NCBI RefSeq assembly: GCF_030345075.1
Contig: NZ_CP128361.1
Location: 2,356,001-2,420,000 of the forward strand
DNA from: Solwaraspora sp. WMMA2065
GTDB taxonomy: Bacteria; Actinomycetota; Actinomycetes; Mycobacteriales; Micromonosporaceae
DNA length: 64,000 nucleotides
Direction: 5' to 3'
The notes under the pieces are model-generated. The model saw nothing but the letters and a program-made list of their open reading frames with translations. It did not search any database and had not been told where the DNA came from. Position numbers and translations under genes: made by a program. The first letter of the stretch is position 1. Each line of letters starts with the position of its first letter. Of this stretch, positions 3,550-45,905 are shown one piece after another.

Positions 3550-4251
3550 GTGGGTCAGCGGCTACCGGTCTTTCCGCTCGGGACGGTGCTCTTCCCCGGG
3601 TTGGTGCTGCCTCTGCACATCTTCGAGGAGCGCTACCGGGCGCTGGTCCGGCATCTGACCAGCCTGCCCGACGGGGTCCCCCGGGAGTTCGGGGTGGTGG
3701 CGATCCGGCGTGGCTGGGAGGTGCTGCCGACCGCCGGGCCGCCGGGCGCGCCGACGCCGACCTCGGTGAGCCTGCACGAGATCGGCTGCACCGCGCAGCT
3801 GCGGCAGGTCACCGAGCTGCCGAACGGACGGTACGACCTCGTGACGGTGGGTCGGCGCCGGTTCCGGATCACCGACCTGGCCACCGAAGGTACGCCGTAC
3901 CTCACCGCGTCGGTGCAGTGGCTGCCCGAGCCGACCGGGTCCGAGGAGCTGGCCGACCTGCTGGCGCCGCAGTTGCTCGCGGTGTTCCGGCAGTATCTCG
4001 ACCTGGTCCGGACCGACTCGGCCGAGATCACCGAACAGCTGCCGGAGCAGCCGACCGTGCTGTCCCACCTGGTGGCGGCGACCGCCGCGTTGCACATCAG
4101 TGAGCGGCAGGCGCTGCTGGCGGAGCTGGACACCGCCCGGCGGCTACGGGCCGAGCTGCGGATGCTCAATCGGGAGGTGGCGCTGCTGCGCCGGGTGCGG
4201 GCGGTGCCGGTCCCGTTGCCCGAGTTGGCGATTCCGGCGAGTCCGAACTGA
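3550..4251 (+). CDS. Lon substrate-binding (LON_sub_bdg) domain protein, no protease domain
   Basis: The 233-residue protein begins [20 protein letters not shown], followed by [10 protein letters not shown], the standard opening of the N-terminal domain of Lon protease. The AAA+ and Ser/Lys protease parts are missing, so it is a stand-alone LON-domain protein like many actinobacterial homologues whose function is unknown. The C-terminal third (about 165-220) is helical and Leu/Arg-rich, as in the Lon N-terminal helical bundle. The GTG start has no Shine-Dalgarno and sits six bases after TAGGCT. Its last 86 bases overlap a convergent gene. Confidence 0.9.
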
Positions 4252-42417: not shown

Positions 42418-45258
42418 TCAGGGGACCACGCTGACCATCCGGCCCGGGACCACGATCACCTTGCGCGGCGTACGGCCGGCCAGGTGCTCGGCGACGGCGG
42501 CCAAAGCGGCGGCCCGTACCTCGTCCTCGGCGGCCTCGGCCGGCACCTCGACGCGGCCCCGCACCTTGCCGGCCACCTGCACCGGGTAGATCACCGACGC
42601 GGCCCGCAGCAGCGCCGGGTCGGCCGACGGGAAGTCGGCGTAGGTCAGCGAACCGGTGTGGCCGAGCCGCTGCCACAGTTCCTCGGCGACGTGCGGGGCG
42701 AACGGCGCCAGCATCAGGACCAGCGGCTCGGCCGCCTCCCGGGGCGTCGCGGGCAGCCGGGTCAGCGCGTTGGTCAGCTCGATCAGCTTCGCGATCGCCG
42801 TGTTGAACCGCAGCCCGTCCATGTCGGCGCGGACACCGTCGACGATCCGGTGCGTCAGCCGGCGGACCTCGTCGGCGGCGGGCGCGTCGGTCACCCGGGA
42901 CGCGCCGGTGTGCTCGTCGACCAGGGCCCGCCACACCCGCTGCAGGAACCGGTACGAACCGACGACCGCCCGGGTCTCCCAGGGACGGGAGACCTCCAGC
43001 GGGCCCATCGACATTTCGTACACCCGGAACGTGTCGGCGCCGTACGCCTCGCACATCTCGTCCGGGGTGACCACGTTGCGCAGGCTCTTACCCATCTTGC
43101 CGTACTCGCGGTTGACCGCGGTTTCGCCGTGGAACCAGCCGCCGTCGCGCTCGGTCACCGCCGCCGCGTCGACGTACGCGCCGCGCGCGTCGGTGTACGC
43201 GTACGCCTGGATGTAGCCCTGGTTGAACAGCCGGCGGAACGGCTCGACGCTGGACACGTGCCCCAGATCGAACAGCACCTTGTGCCAGAACCGGGCGTAC
43301 AGCAGGTGCAGCACGGCGTGCTCGACCCCGCCGACGTACAGGTCGACACCGCCGCAGTCGGTCGCCGACGCCGGTCCCATCCAGTACCGCTCGTTGGCCG
43401 GGTCCACGAAGGCGTCGGCGTTGGCCGGGTCGGCGTAGCGCAGCTCGTACCAGCAGGAGCCGGCCCACTGCGGCATCGTGTTGGTCTCCCGGCGGTAGCT
43501 CCGCCGGCCGGCCGGCGCACCCGGCACCCCGGTCAGGTCCAGCTCCACCTCGACCCAGTCGGCGGCCCGCGACAGCGGCGTCTCCGGGTCGGATGCGGCG
43601 TCGTCGGGGTCGAAGGTACGCGGCGAAAAGTCGTCGATCTCGGGCAGCTCCAGCGGCAGCATCTCCTCCGGCAGCGGGATCGGCAGTCCGGTCTCGTCGT
43701 AGACGATCGGGAACGGCTCGCCCCAGTAGCGCTGCCGGCTGAACAGCCAGTCCCGCAGTCGGTAGGTGACCGCGCCCCGGCCGTGGCCGCCCGCCTCCAG
43801 CCAGGCGATGATCCGTTCCTTGGCCTCGGTCACGCCCAGACCGTTCAGGAAGTCGCTGTTCATCGCCGGCCCGTCACCGGTGTACGCCTTGCCGGTGAAG
43901 TCCGCCGGCGGTGTCACGGTCCGCACGATCGGCAGGTCGAACACCTCGGCGAAGTCCCAGTCCCGCTCGTCCTGCGCCGGCACCGCCATGATCGCCCCGG
44001 TGCCGTAGCCGGCCAGCACGTAGTCGGCGATGAAGATCGGCAGCCGGGCGCCGTTGACCGGGTTGGTGGCGTACGCGCCGACGAAGACGCCGGACTTGTC
44101 GCGGGTCTCGGCCTGCCGTTCGGCGTCGGTGCGCCCGGCCGCCTGCTTGCGGTACGCCTCGACCGCCTCGGCCGGGGTGGCGTGCCCGCCGGTCCACGCC
44201 GGCCGGGTGCCCTCCGGCCAGGCGGTCGGCACCAGCTCGTCGACCAGGGCATGCTCCGGGGCCAGCACCATGTAGGTGGCGCCGAAGACGGTGTCCGGCC
44301 GGGTGGTGAAGACCTCGATCGGCGCGGCGTCGGTCGGGAAGACGATGTGCGCGCCGGTGGACCGGCCGATCCAGTTGCGCTGCATCAGCTTGATCGGCTC
44401 GGGCCAGTCCAGCAGGTCCAGGTCGGTCAGCAGCCGGTCGGCGTAGGTGGTGATCCGCATCATCCACTGCCGCAGGTTGCGCTTGAAGACCGGGAAGTTG
44501 CCGCGCTCGGACCGGCCGTCGGCGGTGACCTCCTCGTTGGCCAGCACGGTGCCCAGACCGGGGCACCAGTTGACCGGCGCCTCGGAGACGTACGCCAGCC
44601 GGTGCGCGTCGACCAGTTCGCGGCGTTCCCGGTCGGTCAGCTCGGACCAGGCGCGCCCGTCCGGGGTGGCGCGCCGACCCGACTCGTACGCGGCGATCAG
44701 CTCACTGACCGGCCGGGCCCTGCCGGCCTCGGTGTCGTACCACGAGTTGAAGACCTGCAGGAAGATCCACTGGGTCCAGCGGTAGAACTCCACGTCGGTG
44801 GTGGCCACCGACCGCCGGTCGTCGTGGGCCAGCCCCAGCATCCGCAGCTGGGCCCGGTAACGTTCGATGTTGGCCTCGGTGGTGGTCCGCGGGTGCTGGC
44901 CGGTCTGCACCGCGTACTGCTCGGCGGGCAGGCCGAAGGCGTCGAAGCCCATCGCGTGCAGCACGTTGCGGCCGGCCATCCGCTGGTAGCGGCCGTAGCA
45001 GTCGGTGCCGATGAAGCCCAGCGGGTGGCCGACGTGCAGGCCCGCGCCGGACGGGTACGGGAACATGTCCAGCAGGAAGAGCTTCTCGGCGTCGGCGCGC
45101 GGGTGGGCCGGGTCGGCCAGCGGGCCGACCGGGTTGGGCGCGTGGAAGGTGCCGTCACGCTCCCACCGCTGCTGCCACCGTCGCTCGATCTCGCCGGCCA
45201 TCGCGGCGGTGTACCGGAACGGTGGGGTGTCCGCCGCGGTCTCGACTGCCTCGCTCAT
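42418..45258 (-). CDS. leuS: Leucyl-tRNA synthetase
   Basis: A class I synthetase of 946 residues. The HIGH motif is HVGH in [17 protein letters not shown], and the KMSKS loop appears as GKMGKSLRN. The CP1 editing domain contains [13 protein letters not shown] and the [16 protein letters not shown] region. The C-terminal anticodon domain runs to [11 protein letters not shown]. The leader, with a Leu-rich peptide and intrinsic terminator 57-170 bp upstream, suggests control by charged tRNA-Leu supply. It ends at a shared hairpin with hxlR. Confidence 0.98.
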
Positions 45259-45314
45259 CGTCGGTCGCCACCTCAGGGTCGGTTGTGGGCTGTGGTGTAT
45301 TGGTCGTGGGCATG

Positions 45315-45338
45315 AAAAAACCCCTCCACAGGAGGGGT
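45315..45338 (-). terminator. Attenuator terminator of leuS
   Basis: Read on the minus strand, CCCCTCC-TGT-GGAGGGG forms a perfect 7-bp stem (8 with the flanking A-T) followed by TTTTTT (45320-45315). It lies upstream of leuS and downstream of the leader ORF, so it would end transcription before leuS. The sequence CAGCACGGC just before the stem is complementary to GCCGTGCTG at the end of the leader ORF. CCACCAGG after the leader stop can pair, with one bulge, with CCTGTGG inside the terminator, giving a possible antiterminator. Confidence 0.8.
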
Positions 45339-45391
45339 CGCCGTGCTGCCGCCGCCGGACGGCCGCTGCGCCGGTCAGGCGGCCTGGTGGG

Positions 45392-45430
45392 TCAGCACGG
45401 CCGGAGAAGGAGCAGGAAGGCGCCGGCCAT
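45392..45430 (-). CDS. leuS leader peptide [12 protein letters not shown]
   Basis: A 12-codon ORF with four consecutive Leu codons (CTG CTC CTT CTC), then Arg-Pro-Cys and TGA. TACACT lies six bases before its ATG and there is no Shine-Dalgarno, so it is probably translated from a leaderless transcript. Stalling at Leu codons when charged tRNA-Leu is low would change folding of the RNA just downstream, where the terminator sits. This is the classical attenuation layout of amino acid operons. The peptide itself likely has no function. Confidence 0.75.
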
Positions 45431-45494
45431 GGCGTCAGTGTACTCCGGGTCGGCGAACCAGGTGGACCGCCCTCACCGCCGGCTCCGGCGACGG

Positions 45495-45905
45495 CTACGA
45501 CCGGCCGGCCTCCCCCGGTCCCTCCGGCACGGTGCCCGGCCGTGACCGGTCTCCCTGTCCCGCGTCGGGCCGGGGCCCGCCCTGCTCGGCGAGGGCGTCG
45601 AACCTGCTCTGCGGGCTCATCGGCGCACCGGACAGGTAGGCCGACCGGGCCAGCGCGTACCCGCCGACCGGCGCGGTGACCACCTGCAGCAGTACGGCCA
45701 GGGTCACCACCACCGCGGTCCGTGGGCTGGGCAGCAGGGTCAGCGCGCCGAGCAGGATGAGCACCAGACCCAGGCTGGCCGCCTTCGCCACCGCGTTCAT
45801 CCGGTTGTAGACGTCGGGCAGCCGTAGCATGCCGAGCCCGGTGATCCCGATCAGCAGGGTGCCCGCGCCGAGCAGCACCCCGGCGAGCACGTTCCAGCCG
45901 TTCAC
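45495..45905 (-). CDS. mnhG: Mrp antiporter subunit G
   Basis: A small subunit of the multi-subunit Na+(K+)/H+ antiporter. The 136-residue protein has three TM segments (about 5-27, 38-58, 65-86) with [27 protein letters not shown], the MnhG signature (in two parts). A 45-residue disordered tail follows. Its start overlaps mnhF by four bases. It is the last gene of the operon; the leuS promoter and leader begin within 65-105 bp of its stop. Confidence 0.93.

Follow-up and report, generated by a model that had tools for sequence, protein, structure and literature searches.

The leucyl-tRNA synthetase gene leuS of Solwaraspora sp. WMMA2065 is probably controlled by a ribosome-mediated transcription attenuator, which would be a member of a family of leuS leaders that extends across much of the class Actinomycetes. 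The gene lies in a stretch of 64,000 nucleotides (contig NZ_CP128361.1, positions 2,356,001 to 2,420,000; hereafter the window, within which all coordinates are given). It is preceded by a short open reading frame (ORF) with a run of Leu codons, by a helix between the end of this ORF and a downstream arm, which we call P1, and by an intrinsic terminator hairpin, T. The most certain part of this reading, which is built on sequence comparison, is a translated Leu leader that appears to control leuS through the terminator. Sensing of a single isoacceptor, tRNA-Leu(GAG), is less certain, and the antitermination step is the least certain. Attenuators of this kind are already known, since predictions for Streptomyces date from 2005, and by its sequence the window's element belongs among them. 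That the element is not a product of chance follows from its conservation, which is the decisive evidence.

The family of the window is the Micromonosporaceae, with Micromonospora and Salinispora as the closest named relatives, and leuS was located in 147 of its 150 genomes searched. Upstream DNA was analysed at 90 family loci (L082-L171), including the window's own. An ORF with adjacent Leu codons directly behind a TANNNT box was found at 88 of these loci by a script, and at 89 after the misses had been read by eye; at L117, which the script had missed, a longer ORF opens from the same kind of start. P1 was recognised by script at 85 of the 90 loci, or at 89 when L113, L123, L141 and L150, seen by eye, are counted, and a loose pattern detected the terminator at all 90. 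A single family locus, L148 (genus g31), keeps the terminator before leuS and has neither leader ORF nor P1. The TANNNT box of the relatives mostly lies 6-7 nt ahead of the leader start, as seen with a script that accepted an ORF if the box was at a distance of 3-10 nt. A preliminary description of the window, made from its letters alone, had named a 12-codon leader with four adjacent Leu codons before leuS, a TACACT box 6 nt ahead of the leader ATG and an intrinsic terminator with a TTTTTT tract between leader and gene. The coordinates and letters of this leader were right, the box and the terminator are present, and the combination of box, short Leu leader and terminator before leuS is strongly supported by the comparison with relatives.

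Among 170 oriented loci, 163 had a leader according to the script that requires the TANNNT box. Fifteen loci (L065-L073 and L075-L080, of which 10 have a leader) were set aside as outside the family, and the remaining 153 elements comprised 137 distinct ones (loci of named relatives included), a set that is rich in Micromonospora. Of these, 135 could be anchored, the exceptions being L046 and L123. In the anchored elements a CTT codon stands 9 nt ahead of CCGTGC in 133, the leader starts 30 nt ahead of CCG in 125, the 3′ arm of P1 ends 2 nt ahead of CCC in 123, and U and G are found 10 and 11 nt past this arm in 116. The inside of P1 is variable and measures 9 to 55 nt. Some family leaders stop early at a TAG yet retain CCGTGC, which argues that this stretch is held at the RNA level. 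In the 5′ parts of leuS from 63 relatives there are 5 CTT and 26 CTC codons among 2643 Leu codons, and their leaders use CTY CTT (Y being C or T). A codon that is so rare in leuS and is nevertheless fixed at one place in almost every leader is not there by chance.

The structure of the leader was assessed in an alignment (A1) of 54 chosen elements, 35 from the family and 19 others; L175 was left out, as its T tract was not recognised. In P1, 97.7% of the cells are paired. One P1 pair covaries, being U-A in 33 sequences, C-G in 18 and U-G in 3, whereas four pairs are invariant and hence uninformative on covariation; columns 30-33 and 35 of the 5′ arm are identical in 54 of 54 elements. The helix between the end of the ORF and the downstream arm is thus conserved by covariation, in agreement with the pairing of GCCGTGCTG with CAGCACGGC that the preliminary description had seen at the leader end. 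When P1 and T were taken as one structure, 91.9% of the cells were paired and the covariation score was 0.134, and either value was reached by none of 500 shuffles and by no slid control.

The control codons of the leader are nearly absent from the gene behind it. In the window's leuS, two of 71 CTN codons end in C or T, compared to 28% in a sample of the genome, and none of 169 sampled genes with enough codons was as low in CTY. In the same gene the codon boxes for Val, Ala, Thr, Ser, Arg and Gly are not depleted, and the one for Pro is mildly depleted. In seven element-bearing genomes leuS contains 0-9% CTY (leuS being partial in this comparison, except the window's), and the difference from the housekeeping genes gave Fisher p values from 9e-3 to 8e-10. 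Pooled fusA, rpoB, rpoC, tuf and rplL, as recognised in ten genomes (three with fusA only), contain 32-46% CTY. In the genome of the window, fusA, the only housekeeping gene recognised, has 37% CTY, and in the sample CTY makes up 26% of the Leu codons. Because housekeeping genes use CTC freely, expression-level codon bias was rejected as the cause of the low CTC content of leuS. tRNA-Leu(GAG) decodes CTC and CTT, and one gene for it was seen, together with those for the CAG and TAA anticodons, among eight class-II-like places examined. The CTC and CTT control codons and their avoidance in leuS suggest that this one isoacceptor is sensed, and also suggest that leuS is protected from the very shortage it answers.

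A comparable contrast was found across the class. With loci filtered by their Leu number and GC3, the median CTY fraction of leuS was 0.034 in element-bearing genomes (n = 34) and 0.234 in element-free genomes (n = 23; p 8e-6); unfiltered it was 0.046 (36) and 0.234 (25). This test comprised 61 of the 76 loci L172-L247, from which the distant L188-L200 had been removed, together with L172 and L232, whose leuS did not start where expected, and the presence of the element was assigned by model hits. In the same genome as the window we observed a further Leu leader in front of leuA (L314, reverse strand, from about position 3620), which was read by eye as MWQALLLRCRDEAPEAGTSSRS with the codons CTT CTC CTT; this leuA has 2 CTY codons among 41 and repeats the pattern of leuS.

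Leaders of the same layout are present ahead of leuS in many other families. A covariance model, R1, has matches in 158 of the 394 class genomes, in 65 of 138 genera (E up to 0.001). In 42 of 42 genomes that were picked by eye and had both positions among the matches listed, the match lies 43-180 nt ahead of the leuS match on the same strand, and these include genomes whose leuS resembles that of the window only weakly (E about 1e-21). L181, L183 and L186 score 71-72 bits and the window 67 bits; among these four, only L186 is outside the 54 rows from which the model was built. Among the genomes listed there is one R1 match per genome, except for two in both G478 and G523, and none in 20 genomes of family f2, which is the Mycobacteriaceae by our guess. 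We further observed that the class holds two groups of leuS, matching the window's gene strongly or weakly, and that the leader precedes both. Searches of Rfam gave no match for the window or nine relatives at gathering scores, and none in 45200-45500 at E up to 5, T-box included; a T-box leader was therefore discarded as an explanation.

In our favoured model, transcription would start at the ATG of the leader and a ribosome would load at once. P1 would then fold behind RNA polymerase, where it is placed to pause the enzyme at the U/G step 10-11 nt past the helix. When tRNA-Leu(GAG) is charged, the ribosome would reach the stop codon and depart, P1 and T would both form, and transcription would end near 45315. 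If this tRNA is uncharged, a stall at CTC/CTT would leave the ribosome with its front edge covering the GCCG base of P1. The freed 3′ arm of P1 would interfere with T, possibly through pairing of GCACGG with CCUGC of the terminator stem and loop, and the polymerase would read into leuS. As no stable conserved antiterminator was found, the switching step is one that we infer. Since the stall would cover the invariant GCCG base and no stable antiterminator was found, a kinetic switch is taken as most likely, in which the ribosome, by stalling, would prevent the base of P1 from closing until the polymerase has passed T. Moreover, leuS is nearly without CTC and CTT, so its mRNA should still be translatable during the shortage.

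A further-reaching version of this model, which we put forward only tentatively and with more doubt than confidence, is that leader and leuS form a matched pair for tRNA-Leu(GAG), in which both leuS and leuA have been recoded to avoid this tRNA and a pause-timed P1 acts without a stable antiterminator, and that the leaders make up an uncatalogued RNA family of the Actinomycetes. With the present comparison, a prediction for two Streptomyces species becomes an alignable and testable family, in a group where experiments on leader attenuation have been ambiguous. The opposed codon choice of leader and gene offers a natural test, outside the enterobacteria, of the theory of isoacceptor drain, and, with no stable antiterminator found, the switching step becomes a question that can be posed concretely.

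Several observations weigh against the attenuator model. When the 5′ arm and loop of T were compared with all upstream sequence for four ribosome positions in 104 distinct family elements, no stable conserved antiterminator was detected. In all six modelled ribosome states of these 104 elements the mean probability of T remained at 0.90-0.97, with single elements down to 0.003. The sole conserved competitor found, in which GCACGG from the 3′ arm of P1 pairs with CCUGC at the end of the terminator stem and in its loop, is a weak helix of 5 pairs and a bulge; 93.6% of its cells are paired, and between 10 and 195 of 500 shuffles matched its covariation measures. A ribosome of normal footprint would cover no more than the GCCG base of P1 when stalled at CTT, and the whole 5′ arm when standing at the stop codon, a geometry that is not that of the textbook. 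For P1 and T together, two of five measures were matched by 10 and 35 of the 500 shuffles, and the structure that was tested had been derived from these same sequences. The codon contrast is also confounded by relatedness. Family means gave p 0.010 (13 vs 10), one of the four families that hold both states runs in the opposite direction, and the element occurs together with a leuS CTY fraction of 0.2-0.34 in f5, f47, f54, f84 and part of f6, f49 and f65. In addition, the leuS of one element-free genome (G338) is likewise below its own housekeeping genes, that of another (G187) is not. Finally, in work on S. coelicolor as cited by Seliverstov et al. (PMC1262725), altered ilvB leader codons had no effect and altered leuA leader codons had effects that did not fit attenuation.

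Three other pairings were considered by eye and dropped: the CUCCUU Leu codons with the 3′ arm of T, GGRG (codons 3-4) with its 5′ arm, and AUGGCC with GGCCGU. They would lie within the footprint of the ribosome during a stall, or do not hold in some relatives.

The preliminary description had proposed the textbook arrangement, in which a stalled ribosome frees CCACCAGG to pair as antiterminator with CCTGTGG of the terminator, in exclusion of the helix at the leader end. This pairing does exist in the window, and both strings are present in its two closest relatives, L083 and L084. It is lineage-specific, however: the pair of strings is absent from the other four of the seven genomes of the genus that were examined, and the usual terminator loop of the family is CTGYGY (111 of 135 rows). 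The two helices are not a conserved exclusive pair either, as P1 and T adjoin and can form together side by side, and in a fold of the whole leader it is P1 with T that prevails over CCACCAGG:CCTGTGG. We therefore consider the textbook version distinctly unlikely. Far less probable still, to the point of being hardly credible, is that the terminator merely ends the operon of the mnh antiporter genes and that the Leu ORF is a chance reading. mnhG and mnhE are indeed located upstream of leuS on the same strand, and mnhG ends only 64 nt ahead of the leader start. Nevertheless, no MnhG motif was detected upstream at 138 of 155 leader loci (within 760 nt) or at 35 of 35 leader loci of the class (within 1.5 kb), with a crude motif that may miss MnhG, and chance would not have fixed the CTT.

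Two explanations that give the leader peptide a lesser or different part are improbable in our judgement, to a similar degree. P1 and T could be a switch that is read by LeuS itself or by some other factor that binds RNA, and the leader ORF would then be secondary. GCCG/CGGC of P1 never changes and T hardly does, beyond what mere pairing needs and as in a binding site; the failure to find a stable antiterminator also favours a switch read by protein, and a protein was argued to act at the LEU element of leuA (PMC1262725). A protein site alone, on the other hand, has no need of conserved control codons at conserved distances to the start and to P1, nor of a leuS whose codon use mirrors that of the leader. 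Alternatively, the element could mainly set expression according to transcription-translation coupling or growth rate, with the ribosome at the stop codon opening P1 and preventing termination. Its geometry would suit such a role, because by sequence and footprint the 5′ arm of P1 should be fully covered only by a ribosome at the stop codon, but coupling would require neither rare Leu control codons nor their near absence from leuS.

A known relative in function is the attenuator of the enterobacterial leu operon (leuL), which has CUA control codons and a stable antiterminator. That system governs a biosynthetic operon, whereas the gene here is a synthetase gene and no stable antiterminator was found. 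What the two share are Leu control codons of a starvation-sensitive isoacceptor, together with a downstream gene that is, or should be, robust to starvation. Elf and Ehrenberg (PMC1183508) deduced from theory that control codons belong to the isoacceptor on which starvation acts most strongly, and in E. coli the leu genes that follow leuL withstand leucine starvation (PMC3783181).

Two reports concern leuS in Streptomyces. For S. coelicolor and S. avermitilis, a classical attenuator of this gene was predicted by Seliverstov et al. (2005; PMC1262725), likewise with a leader peptide ORF and a terminator. Their account names an antiterminator hairpin; no stable conserved one was found in the present elements. 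The spread of the element through 65 genera and the fixed CTY control codons with their avoidance in leuS were not found in the accessible text of that paper. In S. lividans TK24, leuL2 is a leaderless ORF of 12 amino acids (MRAVRLLLSEPR) before leuS, with a hairpin and then a U stretch behind it, as seen by RNA-seq (PMC8079986); the terminator and its use were deduced there from sequence and RNA-seq. This exact peptide is encoded at L181 and L183. These two loci and L186, class loci with an S. lividans-type leader, carry the same element as the window, and their assignment to Streptomyces rests on the leader peptide. The leuL2 peptide ends in PR and the window's leader in PC, a difference that matches the covarying pair of P1.

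The LEU element before actinobacterial leuA, for which the case for a protein was made, also has a leader with a Leu run (PMC1262725), as does the leuA leader of the window's genome. It is described as a pseudoknot whose base stem joins Leu codons to the leuA ribosome binding site (PMC1262725), and the leuA leader of S. lividans is without a typical terminator (PMC8079986). Here the gene is leuS and a terminator is present, and the LEU element was ruled out on these grounds.

The preliminary description had called attenuation of leuS not well described. For this family that holds in the literature searched, whereas in Streptomyces there are the prediction of 2005 and leuL2 of S. lividans. We found no published description of the element in the Micromonosporaceae or of the codon avoidance in leuS in a search of titles and the beginnings of abstracts that covered few subscription journals, and leuS is not named in the accessible main text of a study of S. 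clavuligerus 3′ ends (PMC8269248).

The features of the window's leader are listed in the table. Between 45442 and 45258 the order on the minus strand is TACACT, 6 nt, leader ORF, 43 nt, P1 3′ arm, terminator and leuS.

Table. Coordinates of the leuS leader elements in the window
Feature	Position	Strand	Remarks
-10-like box TACACT	45437..45442	-	sequence; 6 nt ahead of leader ATG
Leader ORF, 12 codons	45392..45430	-	ATG GCC GGC GCC TTC CTG CTC CTT CTC CGG CCG TGC TGA
Leu run CTG CTC CTT CTC	45415-45404	-	four adjacent Leu codons in leader
Fixed control codon CTT	45409-45407	-	9 nt ahead of CCGTGC
P1 5′ arm GCCGTGCTG	45393..45401	-	last leader codons and stop
P1 3′ arm (a′) CAGCACGGC	45340..45348	-	pairs with GCCGTGCTG; ends 2 nt ahead of terminator CCCC
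Intrinsic terminator hairpin T, GACCCCTCC TGT GGAGGGGTT	45319..45339	-	9 pairs, 6 G-C
U tract TTTTTT	45315..45320	-	first two bases double as outermost stem bases
ATGCCCA, conserved RTGCC block	45307..45313	-	7 nt after GGGG

leuS itself extends over 42418..45258 on the minus strand, with its ATG start at 45258, and its product is a leucyl-tRNA synthetase of 946 amino acids that matches the TIGR00396 leuS_bact profile with 872 bits (cut-off 548). The fold of the whole leader had a z score of -2.44 relative to shuffled sequences, 4 of 200 of which folded equally well. A script with fixed criteria recovered 2 strong terminators with a U tract on both strands of 400 kb sampled from this genome. 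From the position of TACACT in the sequence a leaderless transcript is predicted, which would begin at about 45430; upstream of the box no -35 element was recognised. In S. lividans the -10 consensus is TAnnnT and 17% of transcripts are leaderless (PMC8079986).

Two further features of the family elements were observed. Just behind the U tract, and 7 or 8 nt past a G-run, stands [ACG]TGCC in 119 of the 137 distinct elements, 18 being without it. The GAGGGG ahead of RTGCC is placed like a ribosome binding site, and no conserved ORF follows. RTGCC as the start of a second ORF was rejected, as the ORF lengths scatter, with six of only 2 codons, and no coding constraint is therefore seen. Both of the strong terminators found in the 400 kb of genome (n = 2) were without RTGCC. 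The RTGCC block and P1 were each compared with the pause pattern G-10/Y-1 G+1. At the other end of the element, the leader opens with ATG NCC NGG in most family members (codons 2-3 at 45427-45422 of the minus strand in the window), with C in 87% and 82% and the last G in 88% of the 135 rows.

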